Origin: Anabaena sp. FACHB-1237
GTDB lineage: Bacteria > Cyanobacteriota > Cyanobacteriia > Cyanobacteriales > Nostocaceae
Direction: 5' to 3'
NCBI RefSeq assembly: GCF_014696225.1
Contig: NZ_JACJPV010000018.1
Location: 1-64,000, forward strand
DNA: 64,000 nt
Shown here: positions 27,487-63,501 of the stretch, one piece after another
Layout of the letters: each line of letters opens with the position of its first letter
Numbering within the stretch: position 1 is the first letter of the stretch
Notes under the pieces: generated by a model
Databases searched by the model: none
What the model saw: only the letters and a program-made list of their open reading frames with translations
Told to the model about the DNA's origin: nothing
Made by a program: the position numbers and the translations under genes

Positions 27487-27715
27487 GGCGTTGCTGAATT
27501 GGAGTATGATATTTACAGGACTTACGCAACTGGCATATTGGTAGGGTGTGGTTCGACAGTATAAATCATGTAAATAACCAAATTGTTGATATCTGACGCA
27601 CCCACTCAACAGATTTTTTACTGTGACACTTGCGTAAGTCCTAATTTATTTCCCGCATCAGCGAAGCGAAGCACTGGCGTTAGATGCAAAGTTTCAACCT
27701 GAGTTCAGCAACGCC
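27487..27715. mobile_element. GTTGCTGAA-family element interrupted by another element
   Basis: The outer ends are GGCGTTGCTGAA and TTCAGCAACGCC. The outer sequence matches the uninterrupted copy at 36182-36314 and the relative at 49122-49237 (same AAGCGAAGCACT segment). An unrelated 126-bp element sits inside at 27517-27642, splitting a TATTTATTT-like target. Confidence 0.8.
27517..27642. mobile_element. AGGACTTACGC-family MITE, nested copy
   Basis: 126 bp with perfect 13-base terminal inverted repeats AGGACTTACGCAA. ATTTA occurs on both sides (27511-27515 and 27644-27648), one base away from each end, giving a 5-bp target duplication. The family recurs at 43290-43435 and 49414-49561. No coding capacity. 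Confidence 0.82.
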
Positions 27716-27734: not shown

Positions 27735-30700
27735 TTATGACGTTGGTTTCTGATCTGGGAACATACACTTATCAGAGTCACAACCGCTAGGTCCGACTTC
27801 TGACATTTCCCCTAAATCATAACGGCTTAATACTCCACAAAAATCATCATTTTTCCGTCTTTCCTTCACTTGTTTAGATAACAGTTTATAGGTTTCTGCA
27901 TCTATAGGTTCAAAAGGCAATCTAGGAAATGTTTGAATATCATCAAACCGTGCTAATAAAGCCGCAGAGATATAACCCTCATCATTTTTAATGGCCTCAT
28001 AAATGCGTGTACCTAAAGGTTCAATCTCTTCAGAACGTAATTCTAAAGTTGCTGAAGTATTATGAGCAGTGTAATATTTTTGTACCTGCATCACAAAGTC
28101 TAACTGTGCTAAAACTGAAAATTTAGATACATCAATTTCATCAGCACCAGGTAAATCTGCCCAGGACACAGCCACAGGTATTTCTACTAACCACTCTGTA
28201 CATCTGGGATCAAATGGGTCATTTAGTAAATTACCCTTTTCATCTTTATCGGATTGAGATGGTATAATACTATACCCATATTCTAAACAAGCTAAAGCCA
28301 CAGGGTCATTTTTACCGAAAGTGATGCGGCGGATGAATCTTTGCGCTTTAGGAGGATGCCAACCAGGAGAAGCTCCGGTTAAAAGTGCTTTAGTTCCCGA
28401 AGGTTGTACCGTAGTACAACGATTAGGACGTTTAAGACCATGTTTGTCGCAATAATTCCAGACGGTTTGATGGACTATATCTTTCCACCGGCTGAGATAT
28501 TCTGCTTCTGCACGTTTAAAGATTAAACCTTCTGGGGTTTCTGGTCTACCTTGTTCCCACCAATGCAACCAGTTTACACCAAAAGCATGAACGAAGAAGT
28601 CGAATAGCCCAGTAAAGGAAACTCCCACAATGGGATCAAGTTCCCGACTATATTGATAGCGGGGTTCAAGGAAATGATGATTTAATAATGTGGCTACGGA
28701 TAGCGCACTAGCCGTAAATGCTTCTTCTTGTTCTTTGTAGTTATCGGGATCGAGTTGGTTTAAGTGAACTTCCGCTAAATTGCAAAAGAAATTAGTACCT
28801 ATAATTTCACCACAATTGTGCGTAATACAACCATTGGCAATAAAAGAGTGGGTTAGGGGAACATGAAGATCATAAACTGGTTCTTCACCAAATTCTTCAA
28901 TGCTTTTAACTTTTGAAGTGAATCTTTGACTAATAATAGCTTCACTATATTTCCTGGATGACTCCTTAGTAGCTAGTGTTGCTAAACATTCCTGTTTATC
29001 AGGTATTAAAGGGAAACCTATTAATTGCCAAAATTTTGTTGCTTCCGCTGCTGAATAGATCATCAGTCTGCAACTATCCCTATTTTGGCTGACTTTCTCA
29101 GTTCCATCTTTTAATGTGCATGGAACTCCCCTGCTTCCTGCTTTTTCTTTGATCAGGAGACTGCTTTTAATTCCTAAATTAAGTAGGATGATCTGAATTT
29201 GAGCAAGTAATTGTCGTGAGCGGTTACGCAGTTCAATATTTCTACCTTTGACGTTAACACAACCATCTGCAGAAAATAATCCTTGCAAGAAACCAATAAT
29301 TACCTCTTGTGATTGAGATAAAAACTGATCTGGTAAATAGTCTTTAGATTTTACACCTAGTTTATTGCAAAGTGAATCTACTAAAGGTGAGTCATTATGC
29401 AACGTACAAGCACCTTTAACTAGGTTTGGTTTATGACTATAACCTGTCAAAGATTCCACAGCAGCAGTCAACACAGGAAAAGCGGTTTTGTACTCATTTT
29501 GGTTGATGTAGAATACAGCATCTAATTCTTTATAACCTTGATAGGTTGAGTCATCACTGTATAACCATCCCAACATTTGCGCTTGTTCAACTGTAATAGT
29601 ACCTTCTCCAAAATATCCTGCACCTTTTTGGATGTAGATATGATGATCAGATGTTAAGTCTTTGGTTGCTACCCATCCATGATTGGTAAAGTGTTGATGG
29701 TCAGCAGTACATCTCATTTGCTGGCCGTTTGCTAGGGTAATGAGATAGGTTGTTTGTACTCCTGTGGGAAAAGCGATCGCGTCTGTCAGTCTAACTCCAT
29801 CTAGCCCTACAGCACGCAAGTCAACTAAGGCTTGAAATGGTTTACCTACTAATTCTTTAATCGGTACTAATCCTTGATTTGTAGATACCAATGTATCCCC
29901 TGCGTGGCATGGATTTAAACCATATCTACTTAAACGATGCTCTAGTTCTTGATTATCTATTTTTGGATAACGTTCTTGTATCCAATCTTTACCCTTACCT
30001 TGCTGATATGCTTGTACAAAGTCAATTTTTAACTCTTGGGTTGTCAATAAATCTATATTAGCTCTAGCTACTGCTTCCCCAGCCCATTGAATTGCACCTT
30101 CTCCACTATAGTACTGCTTTTGTACCGACTCTATACATTCGTTTAAGGTAGGTTTATGATGAAATACTCTTGTATGGTTCGCCATTCGTAAAGCATCACG
30201 TTCTGGGTCAATACTCCAGTTACCTTGTGCATCTTGCTGCCATAAGTTGTCCTTAGCTTTACTTCCTAACTCATCATCTGATACGAATTGCCGCATACCG
30301 GCACTTCGGCGCACATTACCTGCAACTATAGTAACTGCTGCTTCGTCAATAAGCAGACAACATTCAACAGAATTTAATTTTCTGCCTACTGCTTTATTCA
30401 ATATTGATGCAATACGTTGATAAAGTCCCGATAATTTCACTGGGTTAGCAATGCCACCAAATCCTTTAAGCACTTCCCCAGATTTACGGACATCGGAAAC
30501 ATCTACAATTACCTGCACTTTACTGGTAAAACGTTCATCAGTGGATAATTCCAGAATAGTTTGATAGGATTTTACCCAACCTTCTCGACTATCACCAACG
30601 TAAATATTTACAGTGTTATCTTTGACAATCACATCTGTAAATTCCCGGCGTTTTTCTGTTGGTGTACTACCAATTTCTCCTTGAATGGTAATATTCAAAT

Positions 30701-31130
30701 AATTACGGATGACGGGAAGTTGATTAATATACTGTGGTTGTATGATTGCACCAGTGCCACAACCCATCATGGCCAAGTCCATCATTAAACCAAAGGATTT
30801 CCAGTCTACTAAGTTGGTAGAAGTGCAATTATAGCCTCCAGGGAAGTTTTTGGGTTTAGACATCCATTCCGTGCCTCCTACCCACATCCAACGACCGCTA
30901 GGAAGGGCTTTTAATTGACGCTGCATTTTATCCAAGAGAGCCGCTTCTTCCTTGGTTAATTTTCCTAATTCTACTAAACCCTTAATCGTGCGATCGCACA
31001 CCTGATCATAACTTTCTCTGAGTCCGGCTGCGGTACGGCGGCTATAAGTTCTAAAAAATACGGGGTTAGCTGCCGGTGCTGACTCTGGAAAAGTGGCACT
31101 CTGACGTTGACGTGAAAGTTCTTGAATCAT
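27735..31130 (-). CDS. nrdJ: Class II (B12-dependent) ribonucleotide reductase with intein
   Basis: A 1131-residue precursor: N-extein 1-407, intein 408-772, C-extein 773-1131. The spliced enzyme would be 766 residues, right for an adenosylcobalamin-dependent ribonucleoside-triphosphate reductase that makes deoxynucleotides by radical chemistry. Visible motifs are the YNCTST redox cysteine, the active-site NPCGEI (rebuilt only after splicing), the radical-barrel segments MMGCGTGAI and RRSAGMRQF, and a C-terminal GCDSDKC redox pair. Coenzyme B12 dependence fits the cobyrinate synthase gene nearby, although that linkage may be chance. It is monocistronic on the minus strand. Confidence 0.95.
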   Translation of the reverse strand: MIQELSRQRQSATFPESAPAANPVFFRTYSRRTAAGLRESYDQVCDRTIKGLVELGKLTKEEAALLDKMQRQLKALPSGRWMWVGGTEWMSKPKNFPGGYNCTSTNLVDWKSFGLMMDLAMMGCGTGAIIQPQYINQLPVIRNYLNITIQGEIGSTPTEKRREFTDVIVKDNTVNIYVGDSREGWVKSYQTILELSTDERFTSKVQVIVDVSDVRKSGEVLKGFGGIANPVKLSGLYQRIASILNKAVGRKLNSVECCLLIDEAAVTIVAGNVRRSAGMRQFVSDDELGSKAKDNLWQQDAQGNWSIDPERDALRMANHTRVFHHKPTLNECIESVQKQYYSGEGAIQWAGEAVARANIDLLTTQELKIDFVQAYQQGKGKDWIQERYPKIDNQELEHRLSRYGLNPCHAGDTLVSTNQGLVPIKELVGKPFQALVDLRAVGLDGVRLTDAIAFPTGVQTTYLITLANGQQMRCTADHQHFTNHGWVATKDLTSDHHIYIQKGAGYFGEGTITVEQAQMLGWLYSDDSTYQGYKELDAVFYINQNEYKTAFPVLTAAVESLTGYSHKPNLVKGACTLHNDSPLVDSLCNKLGVKSKDYLPDQFLSQSQEVIIGFLQGLFSADGCVNVKGRNIELRNRSRQLLAQIQIILLNLGIKSSLLIKEKAGSRGVPCTLKDGTEKVSQNRDSCRLMIYSAAEATKFWQLIGFPLIPDKQECLATLATKESSRKYSEAIISQRFTSKVKSIEEFGEEPVYDLHVPLTHSFIANGCITHNCGEIIGTNFFCNLAEVHLNQLDPDNYKEQEEAFTASALSVATLLNHHFLEPRYQYSRELDPIVGVSFTGLFDFFVHAFGVNWLHWWEQGRPETPEGLIFKRAEAEYLSRWKDIVHQTVWNYCDKHGLKRPNRCTTVQPSGTKALLTGASPGWHPPKAQRFIRRITFGKNDPVALACLEYGYSIIPSQSDKDEKGNLLNDPFDPRCTEWLVEIPVAVSWADLPGADEIDVSKFSVLAQLDFVMQVQKYYTAHNTSATLELRSEEIEPLGTRIYEAIKNDEGYISAALLARFDDIQTFPRLPFEPIDAETYKLLSKQVKERRKNDDFCGVLSRYDLGEMSEVGPSGCDSDKCMFPDQKPTS
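28815..29909 (-). other. Intein with LAGLIDADG homing endonuclease
   Basis: This 365-residue protein-splicing element lies within nrdJ. It starts with Cys408 (CHAGDTLVSTNQG, block A) and ends NGCITHN (His-Asn, block G), followed by the extein Cys773. Two DOD-type endonuclease motifs are visible, MLGWLYSDD and LQGLFSADGCV, plus a DLHVPLTHSFIANG block F. All splicing residues are present, so it should be active. The insertion point is immediately before the catalytic cysteine of NPCGEI, a classic site of selection against loss. Confidence 0.93.
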
Positions 31131-31637: not shown

Positions 31638-31709
31638 AGCTGGAATTAAAGTTACAGTAGCACAAGCATCTTGCTTGTATTAATTATTCAAGTTAAAGGC
31701 ACAACAGCT
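31638..31709. mobile_element. Partial 100-bp TA-type MITE
   Basis: The right end is intact (...CAACAGCT followed by TA at 31710-31711). The left arm is truncated and eight bases near the AATTAAA block are missing relative to the full copy at 35786-35885. The core AAGCATCTTGCTT is present. Confidence 0.75.
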
Positions 31710-31712
31710 TAT

Positions 31713-33831: not shown

Positions 33832-33889
33832 GTTTTTTTAGTTTTTTTTTTGCTAATGTTTGAATTAAGGATAAGGTATGGCTTGTTTA

Positions 33890-34094
33890 ATTTGGATAAG
33901 TTATGCAAGCAAGATGCTTGTGCTACTTTCATTTGGATAAGTTATGCAAGCAAGATGCTTGTGCTACTTTCATTTGGATAAGTTATGCAAGCAAGATGCT
34001 TGTGCTACTTTCATTTGGACAAGTTATGCAAGCAAGATGCTTGTGCTACTTTCATTTGGATAAGTTATGCAAGCAAGATGCTTGTGCTACTTTC
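33890..34094. repeat. Five 41-bp tandem repeats with palindromic core
   Basis: Five copies of a 41-bp unit beginning ATTTGGATAAGTTATGC and containing GCAAGCAAGATGCTTG; only one base (GGAC for GGAT) varies. The unit corresponds to the centre of the 100-bp TA-type MITE, and the sequence after the array (ATTTTAGG) matches that element's right arm. There are no spacers, so it is not a CRISPR array. It fills most of the 300-bp gap between zds and the SRPBCC gene. Confidence 0.92.
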
Positions 34095-34100
34095 ATTTTA

Positions 34101-34121
34101 GGGTTTAGCATTGCTAAACCC
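34101..34121. repeat. Palindrome GGGTTTAGCA-type, copy 2
   Basis: GGGTTTAGCATTGCTAAACCC, a perfect palindrome apart from the central base, just before the zds stop codon region. It could act as a hairpin at the end of the zds message. Confidence 0.85.
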
Positions 34122-34131
34122 CTACTAAATC

Positions 34132-35571
34132 CTATTTCTTCACAGTTTCTAAAATTGCTTTTGCTGCACGTTTTCCAGAAATTGTTGCTCCTTCCATACT
34201 ATCAATATAGTCTTGTTGGGTGTAACTTCCTGCTAAGAAAAAGTTAGGAATTGGTGTTTTTTGATCAGGGCGATATACGTCCATTCCTGGTGCTTCTTTA
34301 TATAAAGATTGAGCTAATTTAACCACACTATACCAGGTCATGTTTAATTCTCTGGATGATGGAAATAACTCATGAACTTGTTTTAACACATGGTTAGCGA
34401 TCGCTTCATTACTTTCTTTAATAAATGGATCTCCTGGTGTTAAAACTAACTGTAATAATGAACCTTGGCCGGGACGATAATAGTCTTTAGGACTAGTTAA
34501 TGCCAAATCTGCAAAACAGGAAAAATCAGCATCTCCAGTATATAATAAATTATCTAAACCTGCCGCGTGATTTAATTGTTTGCGTTTTTGTTCATCTTGT
34601 AATTCTGTCACCCAACCATCAAATCTTAATTGTACAGTGGCTACAGGAACAGCTTCTAATTTATAAATATTGTCAAATTCTGGCCATTTTCGCCATGCTT
34701 GGGGTAATACACGCTGTATTCCCGGTACATCACAAGCACATAAATAAGCATCCGCTGTAATTACTTCTTCCGTATCACCTTGGGCTACTGCTATACCAGT
34801 AACACGGGTTTCTTGCTCAGTTTCCGCAAATTGAATTTCTCTTACTTGGCGACGGGTGTATATTTTTGTACCTCTAGCTTCTAAATACTCCACCATAGGT
34901 TTAAGTAAGTATTCAGCAGGTGATCCTGCCAACATTCGCAGTATGGAGGCTTCGGTTCTCACTGCAAAAAATTGGAAAATTGTCAGCATACAACGAGCGG
35001 AAATGTTCTCACAGTTTATGAAACCCAAAGCATAAGCGATAGGGTCCCACATTCGTTTAATACTACCCTTATTACCGCCATGACTGTAAAACCAATCGGC
35101 AAAACTAATATTATCTAAATCGCGGATATTTTTCATTGCTCCTTCAAAGTCTACTAATCCGCGTACAATGGGGCTAGTACCAAGAGCGATCGCATTTTGT
35201 ATTTTATCTTGTAAGGACAGTTGTGAACTGGTAAGAAATGCCTTTAACCCGTTAAAAGGCGCACCTGTGATAAAGCGGAAGTCTAAAGCTCCTGTTGTGC
35301 CACCTTTATTAATAAAAGTGTGGATATGCTCTTTGAGAAGTAGATTATCTCGTGATCCCACTTTTTCCATCAATGCAAACAAATTGTAGTAGCAGCCAAA
35401 AAATACGTGCAAGCCCATTTCAATATGGTTGCCATCCGCATCTACCCAACTACTAACTTTACCACCCACAAACGGACGAGATTCAAATATTTGTACCTCA
35501 CAACCCGCATCAACTAAGTCTATAGCAGTCACTAAACCTGCTAAACCTGCACCTACAATTGCAACACGCAT
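34132..35571 (-). CDS. zds: Zeta-carotene desaturase
   Basis: A 479-residue FAD-dependent carotene desaturase (CrtQ type) that converts zeta-carotene through neurosporene to lycopene. The dinucleotide-binding motif [17 protein letters not shown] lies at residues 3-19, followed by [10 protein letters not shown]. Conserved plant-type segments such as [13 protein letters not shown] and [15 protein letters not shown] distinguish it from bacterial CrtI. The C-terminal flavin-binding part reads [19 protein letters not shown]. It heads a possible three-gene cluster with the SRPBCC gene and cobB, but a repeat array separates it from them. Confidence 0.96.
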
Positions 35572-35666
35572 TCCCTCGTTCCTTGTTCAGTTTCTTTACA
35601 AATTGTAACAGAAGTTTGTACATCTTTGTCAGAATTAGGATTAAAGGATTTTTAGGATGTGATTTT

Positions 35667-35960
35667 GTCTGAATCAGGATATCCAGGATGTCAGAATTTT
35701 CAGGATGTTGTTTAGGAAATAAAGGTTTTTGTCAAGGATATAGAAGGATATAGAATATATTTTATTATTTGTCTGAATCAGGATAAGCTAATGTGCAGCA
35801 CTCACTGTATAATTAAAAAACCTGAAGTTACAGTAGCACAAGCATCTTGCTTGTATTAATTATTCAAGTTAAAGGGACAACAGCTTATCCAGGATGTCAG
35901 AATTTTCAGGATGTTGTTTAGGAAATAAAGGTTTTTGTCAAGGATATAGAATATATTTTT
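35667..35960. repeat. Direct duplication providing empty and filled MITE sites
   Basis: The segment starting GTCTGAATCAGGAT is present twice (35667 and 35771) and stays alignable to about 35960. In the first copy it continues ATCCAGGATGTCAG. In the second the same junction is interrupted by 100 bp plus TA before TATCCAGGATGTCAG resumes. The first copy also has an extra 10-bp GGATATAGAA. Confidence 0.9.
35786..35885. mobile_element. 100-bp TA-type MITE, copy with adjacent empty site
   Basis: Exactly 100 bp from AGCTAATGTGCAGCAC to CAACAGCT, flanked by TA on each side (35784-35785 and 35886-35887). The ends form an imperfect inverted repeat and the centre carries AAGCATCTTGCTT. The unoccupied counterpart reads GGATATCC at 35677-35684. 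No coding capacity, so movement would need a transposase supplied in trans. Confidence 0.88.
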
Positions 35961-36181
35961 ATTTCCAAAAAATCTGATCATTCAATATTCACAGATAATC
36001 TATAAATAACAATCCTGTACATCCTAAAATCCTGGTTATCCCGATTCAGACAATCACAATAAACAACCTCCAAATAGTGAAAAAGTAACTTTACGTAGCT
36101 GATTAAGGGTATGATCAAGGTTTCACGCACAGGCACTCCAGGTACACAAGAGTAAGATTTTCATTTTTGTAACTTTTCCAT

Positions 36182-36396: not shown

Positions 36397-36789
36397 CTAT
36401 TTCTGATGTTTAACCTCAACTACTGTATGCACATTACCACGAGGAGTAAAATCAGCTTTTACCGTAATTTCTAAAGGATCACAAGCAGCCACAACATCAT
36501 CTAAAATTTGATTTGCTGACTCTTCATGGGAAATATAGCGATCGCGGTAACTATTAATATATAATTTCAAAGCCTTTAATTCTACCACTCGTTCATCTGG
36601 TACATAACTAATATAAATCGTCGCGAAGTCAGGATAACCCGAAAAAGGACATTTACAAGTAAATTCTGGCAAAGTAATATTAATATCATAGCGTCGGCCA
36701 ATGCGGGGATTAGGAAAAGTAATTAATTTGCCTTCCGCAATTTCCCTTTCTCCATATTTCACTTCTAAATCAGATGTCAATTTACTCAT
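36397..36789 (-). CDS. queF: NADPH-dependent preQ0 reductase
   Basis: A 130-residue type I (unimodular) QueF of the tunnelling fold. It reduces the nitrile 7-cyano-7-deazaguanine to preQ1 for queuosine synthesis. The catalytic Cys47 and Asp54 lie in CPFSGYPDFA, and the family signature VELKALKLYINSYRDR follows with the substrate-binding Glu in ISHEE. No preQ1 riboswitch-like pseudoknot is evident in the short upstream region. Confidence 0.95.
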   Translation of the reverse strand: MSKLTSDLEVKYGEREIAEGKLITFPNPRIGRRYDINITLPEFTCKCPFSGYPDFATIYISYVPDERVVELKALKLYINSYRDRYISHEESANQILDDVVAACDPLEITVKADFTPRGNVHTVVEVKHQK

Positions 36790-38477: not shown

Positions 38478-38607
38478 TGATCAGAACACCATGATTTTTA
38501 GTTAAATCAGGTTTTTTAGATAATCCTATGACACTATAACATAAACAAAGCAAAATTTCAATAACTAAAAATACATTTTCTGATATTTTTTGAGTAACCT
38601 ACTGTTA

Positions 38608-38707
38608 AGCTGTTGTACTTTTAATTTGGATATTAGATGGAAGCAAGATGCTTGCACTACAGTAATTTTAGGTTTTTTATTTATACAGTCAGTGCTGCAC
38701 ATCAGCT
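38608..38707. mobile_element. 100-bp TA-type MITE, complete copy
   Basis: Exactly 100 bp from AGCTGTTGTAC to GCACATCAGCT, with TA at 38606-38607 and 38708-38709. It is a diverged member: the centre reads GGAAGCAAGATGCTTGCACTAC and TTTAATTTGGATATTAGATG, which links this family to the 41-bp tandem units at 33890 and 63093. Confidence 0.85.
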
Positions 38708-38755
38708 TACTGTTACACTTTTGCCTTTTTATTGATTTTTGTATTGGCGCGATAT

Positions 38756-41055: not shown

Positions 41056-41160
41056 TACAGCAGTTTCCGTTATTATGTTGTTCCTTTAACTTGAATAATT
41101 AATACAAGCAAGATGCTTGTGCTACTGTAACTTCAGGTTTTTTAATTATACAGTGAGTGT
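41056..41160. mobile_element. Fused MITE remnants
   Basis: 41056-41077 is the left end of the TACAGCA family (TACAGCAGTTTCCGTTATT...). It joins directly, at 41078, a 100-bp TA-type element lacking its first six bases and breaking off at GTGAGTG (about 41158). The next complete element begins a few bases later. Confidence 0.8.
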
Positions 41161-41166
41161 CAGATA

Positions 41167-41266
41167 AGCTGTTGTTCCTTTAACTTGAATAATTAATACA
41201 AGCAAGATGCTTGTGCTACTGTAACTTCAGGTTTTTTAATTATACAGTGAGTGCTGTACATTAGCT
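41167..41266. mobile_element. 100-bp TA-type MITE, complete copy
   Basis: Exactly 100 bp from AGCTGTTGTTCC to ACATTAGCT, flanked by TA at 41165-41166 and 41267-41268. It is nearly identical over its core to the truncated copy just upstream and, inverted, to 35786-35885. Confidence 0.87.
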
Positions 41267-41281
41267 TATCAACAATTTAAA

Positions 41282-41839: not shown

Positions 41840-41913
41840 CATGATTAAAAATCCATAAAAGAGCAGCAAGTAAAGATACTTAGAGAGAAACAATCAACTT
41901 TTTGCATTTATTA

Positions 41914-41962
41914 AGCTAATGTGCAGCACTCACTGTATAATTAAAAAACCTGAAGTTACAGT
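41914..41962. mobile_element. Truncated 100-bp TA-type MITE
   Basis: The left end AGCTAATGTGCAGCACTCAC, preceded by TA at 41912-41913, continues to GAAGTTACAGT and then stops matching. It lies in the upstream region of the secreted protein gene. Confidence 0.8.
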
Positions 41963-49561: not shown

Positions 49562-49638
49562 GAATTAATACAAGCAAGATGCTTGTGCTACTGTAACTTC
49601 AGGTTTTTTAATTATACAGTGAGTACTGCACATTAGCT
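49562..49638. mobile_element. Truncated 100-bp TA-type MITE (right part)
   Basis: Right arm complete (…CACATTAGCT, followed by TA at 49639-49640); the left about 25 bases are missing where it abuts the AGGACTTACGC element. Confidence 0.8.
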
Positions 49639-49650
49639 TACCTACAAATA

Positions 49651-62928: not shown

Positions 62929-63078
62929 TCTATAATTTAAATATTTTTTTGCATTCTACATTATTCTTGGTGTTTTATAACCAGATGAATTTTTGATGAT
63001 TGGTATAGGAGTCAGGAGTTCAAGGAGTCAGGAGTCAGAATGAAGAATTTTCTCGCTGCACCCTGGCTTGCTCAGGTA
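62929..63078. other. Gap before ftrC with GGAGTCA repeat
   Basis: An AT-rich leader (about 62929-63000) should hold the ftrC promoter on the minus strand. 63007-63065 is a GGAGTCA/GGAGTTCAA repeat followed by CAGAATGAAGAATTTTCTC, related to 21143-21225. Confidence 0.5.
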
Positions 63079-63468
63079 AGCTGTTTTGCTTTTAATTTGG
63101 ATAATAGATGCAAGCAAGATGCTTGCGCTACAGTAGTGTGGATATATAGATGCAAGCAAGATGCTTGCGCTACAGTAGTGTGGATAATAGATGCAAGCAA
63201 GATGCTTGCGCTACAGTAGTGTGGATAATAGATCCAAGCAAGATGCTTGCGCTACAGTAGTATGGATATATAGATGCAAGCAAGATGCTTACACCACAGT
63301 AATGTGGATAATAGATGCAGGCAAGATGCTTGCGCTACAGTAGTGTGGATAATAGATCCAAGCAAGATGCTTGCGCTACAGTAGTGTGGATAATAGATCC
63401 AAGCAAGATGCTTGCGCTACAGTAATGTGGATAATAGATGCAGGCAAGATGCTTGCGCTACAGTAGCT
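63079..63468. mobile_element. Expanded TA-type MITE with nine 41-bp tandem units
   Basis: The ends are those of the 100-bp family: TA at 63077-63078 then AGCTGTTTTGC, and AGCT at 63465-63468 then TA. Instead of one central unit there are nine copies of a 41-42 bp unit (GTGTGGATAATAGATGCAAG, then CAAGATGCTTGCGCTACAGTA). The variants (GATGC or GATCC, CAAG or CAGG, ATATATAG) recur in an order suggesting stepwise duplication. The right arm of the normal element is lost. No spacers, so it is not a CRISPR array. Confidence 0.87.
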
Positions 63469-63501
63469 TATTAATTGTTGCTTTAACTCCTATCAAACAT
63501 T

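Follow-up and report, generated by a model that had tools for sequence, protein, structure and literature searches.

The window, i.e., the whole stretch of 64,000 nucleotides that was analysed, belongs to a host genome available as a draft of 4.65 Mb in 95 contigs. It carries a short MITE insertion upstream of a minus-strand gene (34132-35571; distance to the gene start, 213 bp) that, from its protein sequence, we take to be zeta-carotene-desaturase-like (zds), and downstream of a second minus-strand gene (36397-36789) that is presumably queF-like on the same grounds. The closest named zds genes, at 89%, are those of Sphaerospermopsis, Dolichospermum and a Nostocales MAG. Across 80 zds/crtQ loci of named Nostocales, similarity ends ~40 bp upstream of the gene, queF is never adjacent, and a regular-expression scan of the named zds loci returned no TAAGCT MITEs; with only those ~40 bp conserved and queF non-adjacent, no orthologous comparison is possible at this locus. 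Elsewhere in the window, positions 27735-31130 encode a ribonucleotide-reductase-like protein with an apparent intein (CHAGDTLVS...ANGCITHN). The features of the site and the other copies of the element in the window are the following:

35664-35763, plus strand: upstream (empty) copy of the tandem segment, with an extra 11-bp unit
35677-35684, unstranded: empty site GGATATCC, with a single TA
35768-35959, plus strand: downstream (filled) copy of the tandem segment, split by the element and the second TA
35784-35785, unstranded: left copy of the duplicated target TA, from the empty/filled comparison
35784-35813, plus strand: left end, homologue of the corresponding end in Nostocaceae IS630-family elements (L295, 24 of 30 aligned columns with one gap)
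35786-35885, plus strand: 100-bp body of the MITE, differing from the consensus at one base
35838-35854, unstranded: interior palindrome ACAAGCATCTTGCTTGT, with no match in the IS
35865-35887, minus strand: right end, homologue of the corresponding end in this IS group (L290, 21 of 23 bases, family consensus used)
35886-35887, unstranded: right copy of the duplicated target TA, from the empty/filled comparison
31649-31711, plus strand: partial copy, element positions 42-104
38606-38709, minus strand: old diverged full copy, 84%
41076-41159, minus strand: end-trimmed copy, element positions 16-99, in tandem with the next
41165-41268, minus strand: full copy of the same MITE, 98%
41912-41962, plus strand: partial copy, element positions 1-51
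49563-49640, minus strand: partial copy, element positions 1-78

Both copies of the tandem segment were compared to define the insertion. The upstream copy holds the empty site GGATATCC with its single TA at 35680-35681, and 104 bp further on, within a near-perfect tandem duplication, the downstream copy reads GGATA (35781-35785), the 100-bp element and TATCC (35886-35890), TA being the sole bases duplicated at the filled site. Once the element and one TA are removed, the downstream copy equals the upstream one, with no mismatches over 82 bp spanning the junction. The original prediction, which placed an empty site beside the filled site of a 100-bp MITE and expected the flanks to match on both sides in a pairwise alignment, is thus exact to the base. 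It had also delimited the duplicated segment as 35667-35960; the duplication itself stands, but its extent is in fact slightly wider, with 35664-35763 facing 35768-35785 plus 35888-35959. A repeat search showed the insert to be flanked left and right by direct repeats, namely TTTGTCTGAATCAGGATA at 35664 and 35768, 71 nt at 35675 and 35881, and AAGGATATAGAATATATTTT at 35744 and 35940. The extra 11-bp unit, AGGATATAGAA, is restricted to the upstream copy, and both copies rejoin at AAGGATATAGAATATATTTT (35744-35763 and 35940-35959).

The duplicated segment is a member of a dispersed repeat (TTGTCTGAATCAGGATATCCAGG...), further copies of which, at ~80-84%, are found in L138, in L131 and, inverted, at 36012-36053. 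These copies lend some ground to the view that the flanks are independent members of that repeat, that no tandem duplication occurred and that the 'empty site' is merely a paralogue. We consider this very improbable, since no other copy seen comes anywhere near the identity of the two neighbours, which is complete over the 82 bp that span the junction. The flanking copies are instead recent duplicates of one another. Chance is excluded, because the 104 bp formed by the element and its two TA recur genome-wide.

Searches of the host genome allowing up to 3 mismatches gave 291 left-end matches (5 in the control) and 205 right-end matches (0 in the control), and the TAAGCTGTTGTGCATTT-type end matched 216 times (0 in the control). 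Full copies numbered 96 in 851 kb of fetched host stretches, which were picked as copy-rich, so that the density of copies there is not to be extrapolated. Among the 81 non-redundant 104-bp copies, 34 (42%) equal the consensus, 26 are one base off and 15 two bases off, i.e., 75 lie within 2 bases of it, and three old copies differ by 15-18 bases; the window copy departs from the consensus at one base (C to G, element position 93). Two substitutions, G91A (18 copies) and G41A (9 copies), distinguish sub-lineages. Such divergence points to a recent burst atop an older population. The consensus termini read TAAGCT(AA/GT)TGTGC at both ends, their inverted-repeat identity being short (11 of 13 bases), and TA forms the first two bases in 91 of 93 copies and the last two in 92 of 93. 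All but two of the 81 copies lie outside ORFs of at least 150 codons, those two interrupting one. A head-to-tail dimer at L116:4531-4737 has one TA common to both elements, which fits insertion of one copy into the terminal TA of another.

A structured RNA function is not supported for the element, its folding barely beating that of shuffled sequences (z of -0.7 and -0.9 for the two strands) and Rfam giving 0 matches. When the element was searched against plasmids, one partial match was retrieved, in Sphaerospermopsis kisseleviana (84% over 50 bp), and none against phages. At L127:3263-3366 a copy of the MITE sits inside a degenerate repeat, adjoining an apparent CRISPR array (GTTTCAGTCCCCTTACGGGGATTAGGTAAATAGAAAC).

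Insertion sites share a palindromic context, T-R-A/TA/T-Y-A, with each of the bases -3 to +3 deviating, symmetrically about TA, from the genomic TA background (p 0.007 to 3e-5); at the window site GGA/TA/TCC is a perfect palindrome and a partial fit to this preference. For ten of the copies there is a paralogue that is uninterrupted and shows just one TA at the junction. These comprise (i) seven gap-free cases, with no gaps within 8 bases, (ii) the window copy, (iii) L109:6828, whose empty paralogues in L143 and L109 are 99% identical over 121 bp, and (iv) L131:16631, whose empty paralogue is window 27514-27643 (95% over 130 bp). At L126:13161 the junction of a diverged paralogue shows TG instead. 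The proposal that TA is the duplicated target is therefore borne out by ten independent empty/filled pairs and by the TA-symmetric target preference.

Duplication of the segment first and insertion second would be the simplest and most parsimonious order, because two events suffice; to reach the same state in the reverse order, an excision without footprint would have to be added as a third. In that reverse order, the element would have inserted first, the filled segment would then have been duplicated, and one copy would have lost the element precisely, restoring GGATATCC. The order of events cannot be read from the sequence alone, and there is no orthologue, which leaves this scenario some room. 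Nonetheless, it is improbable on several counts: besides requiring an extra step, it has to accommodate exactly one TA and no additional base left at GGATATCC, whereas excision in the IS630/Tc1/mariner group usually leaves a footprint, and nine other clean single-TA empty sites occur in unrelated repeats, as expected for never-occupied sites.

The ends of the element led outside the host. TAAGCTGTTGTGCATTT-type ends, at no more than 1 mismatch, were detected in 74 of 118 Nostocaceae genomes, spread over 44 of the 56 genera, the controls giving next to no matches, and many of these ends bound ~103-bp elements with different interiors. In G001 (L282), the sequence immediately before one of these ends encodes a C-terminal piece of a transposase (170 aa), assigned to DDE_3 and, at 101.7 bits, to the IS630 family; relatives of this fragment are present in 81 of 218 genomes. 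The IS remnant at this locus (G001:C5), itself of the TAAGCT type, has apparently been split by a MITE whose ends belong to that family too. Both IS ends were placed by pattern at 24 loci, the right end of L309 being uncertain, and TAAGCT-type ends (once TAAACT) bound both sides in all but one of them. These IS measure ~1.19 kb, mostly 1189-1202 bp, with one (L305) internally deleted to 999 bp; their ends begin TAAGCTG... and their intact transposases have ~370 codons (e.g., L295, L302, L314). The 370-aa transposase of L295 matches DDE_3 (121.2 bits), HTH_33, HTH_32 and NF033545 (267.7 bits, cut-off 100), its putative catalytic residues being D186, D281 and E318.

MITE positions 1-30 and the left end of the IS in L295 agree in 24 of 30 columns of a gapped alignment, and consensus positions 82-104 agree with the IS right end of L290 at 21 of 23. 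Past the 13-bp terminal repeat, the MITE left end still beats background against IS left ends (best 10, reached by 0.3% of random sequences) and does not rise above it against IS right ends, while the best match of the MITE right end is an IS right end. Relative to the IS, the main MITE subfamily carries a one-base insertion in its left end, and an ungapped comparison misses the likeness. Two host elements, L327 and L326, are intermediates that connect the main MITE with the left end of the IS: L327 keeps TAAGCTAATGTGCAGCTAAACTGTATAAT, midway between both and like the IS left end of L307 at 25 of 29 bases by our own count, L326 is similar, and in both of them the remainder of the MITE is essentially unchanged. 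As far as sequence comparison goes, the element is a type I, IS630-derived MITE, given that both its ends match an autonomous IS with an IS630-family DDE transposase and that TA is duplicated. A parent IS in the same genome, usual for type I elements and not obligatory, is absent from the host draft.

The interior of ~45 bp shows no similarity to the IS past the ends. Its core, GCATCTTGC, occurs 203 times in the 851 kb of host stretches against 3 after shuffling, and is distributed over TAAGCT MITEs (127), a second MITE type with TATGAGGTAC ends (26) and other places (50). The arms of its stem often co-vary (ACAA/TTGT, GCAA/TTGC, ACAG/CTGT), this matched variation suggesting that pairing may be preserved. 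It is conceivable, although doubtful, that the hairpin (stem, GCATCTTGC, stem) forms a separate self-maintaining module in at least two MITE types and in tandem arrays, and that it may move or expand independently. Amplified interiors were also observed. On the minus strand, window positions 63077-63470 hold a relative of the MITE (TAAGCTACTG...AAACAGCTTA) whose interior is a 9-copy 41-bp minisatellite with a GCATCTTGC hairpin per unit, and the 3' end of the zds-like gene holds, at 33886-34106, a similar hairpin unit repeated five times in tandem at 41 bp per copy. The latter array is apparently the interior of a MITE without its ends, and the repetitive ORF that it creates (33903-34247) is probably spurious. 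At L110:17379 (G000:C12:77378) the MITE interior is amplified to a 34-bp tandem array, ~429 bp in total.

The original prediction had looked to the host genome for an IS630-family transposase with TAAGCT ends, and none is present in the draft assembly. The best match of a TAAGCT-type transposase there, a weak one (E 5e-5, 39% over 70 aa), is the C56 remnant, which is of another IS630 type. The IS left-end pattern occurs at eleven host sites, the ten of them that were fetched resembling short elements with no IS transposase nearby. The burst consequently looks orphaned in the draft, or else faces an assembly gap, the draft state being the chief reservation. The latter alternative, that the parent IS is still in the host and is missing from the draft since repeated 1.2-kb elements break assemblies, can be entertained as a minority possibility, and it would alter only the orphan part of the interpretation. 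The 95 contigs are in its favour, as are the copies equal to the consensus, which indicate very recent activity; it must be set against the IS left-end pattern yielding short elements only, and against the lack of any transposase fragment of the TAAGCT group throughout the assembly, contig edges included. A parallel is offered by G100, with 84 end matches and one damaged IS (L305).

IS630 remnants do exist in the host, at C56, C4, C1, C2 and C32, and none of them bears TAAGCT ends; they were rejected as parent for this failure of their ends to match. Broken IS630-type transposase genes are observed at L009/L101 (G000:C56) and L010 (G000:C4), and these C56/C4 elements may have given rise to the other abundant MITE type, the one with TATGAGGTAC ends. 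That the same elements, whose ends are TATGAGGTAC-like, rather than a TAAGCT-ended IS, mobilised the MITE studied here is scarcely credible: they are the sole DDE_3 transposase remnants in the host, yet their ends are unlike TAAGCT, both genes are disrupted, and the TAAGCT ends match another IS group on both sides.

Altogether, we regard it as very probable that the insert is an IS630-derived MITE moved in trans into a TA, with the tandem duplication preceding the insertion. The insert would be a non-autonomous derivative (type I MITE) of a Nostocaceae IS630-family IS, in which an unrelated ~45-bp interior, including a short hairpin, is framed by ~30 bp from the left end of the IS and 23-28 bp from its right end. 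From a source presumably lost from the host, that IS group would have supplied in trans a transposase that recognised both ends and inserted the element at a TA with palindromic surroundings (GGA-TA-TCC at this site), so that the TA was duplicated. The ~100-bp segment would have been tandemly duplicated beforehand, one copy then gaining the element and the other staying empty. Mobilisation in trans by an IS630-type transposase, as originally proposed, is in this way supported by the occurrence in relatives of TAAGCTG...-ended IS630-family IS with an intact DDE transposase, which makes this group the likely mover.

At this site, TA-targeted insertion is demonstrated to the exact base by the locus itself, and a cyanobacterial MITE of high copy number, apparently orphaned, is linked to a defined IS630 group of other genera. 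Nostocales MITEs have been named 'type II' for want of a parent in the same genome, and here the parent is recovered by a family-wide search. Moreover, with 42% of its copies identical and no transposase in sight, this burst lends itself to asking how MITEs outlive or out-travel their source.

The kind of element is itself ordinary and already known; what is added here is the parental IS group and its apparent absence from the host. A MITE with an internal minisatellite is described in Porphyromonas gingivalis (PMC4596501). The window relatives at 63077-63470 and 33886-34106, with their 41-bp tandem interiors, resemble it, unlike the copy at 35786-35885, which has a single interior unit, and nothing hints at related lineages. 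Anabaena sp. strain 90 is described as carrying 147 MITEs of 77-541 bp, 132 of the 147 being intergenic (Wang et al. 2012, PMC3542288), and these are classed as type II, its genome being without IS of matching ends (PMC3542288). At the level of description, the present family resembles them in its Nostocales host, its mostly intergenic location and the lack of a resident IS with the same ends, and differs in that the matching IS was found via other genera. Nezha, reportedly found in Anabaena and Nostoc and tied to ISNpu3-like elements, is a further counterpart. According to papers that cite it, it is a small, active, non-autonomous cyanobacterial MITE (Zhou et al. 2008, cited in PMC10969869 and PMC3733652). 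The element studied here is likewise a small non-autonomous cyanobacterial element of the MITE kind, a likeness again at the level of description. With IS630-family IS (NCBIfam NF033545, Pfam DDE_3) it shares the TA duplication and matching left and right ends, but, unlike them, it codes for no protein and keeps the ends alone.
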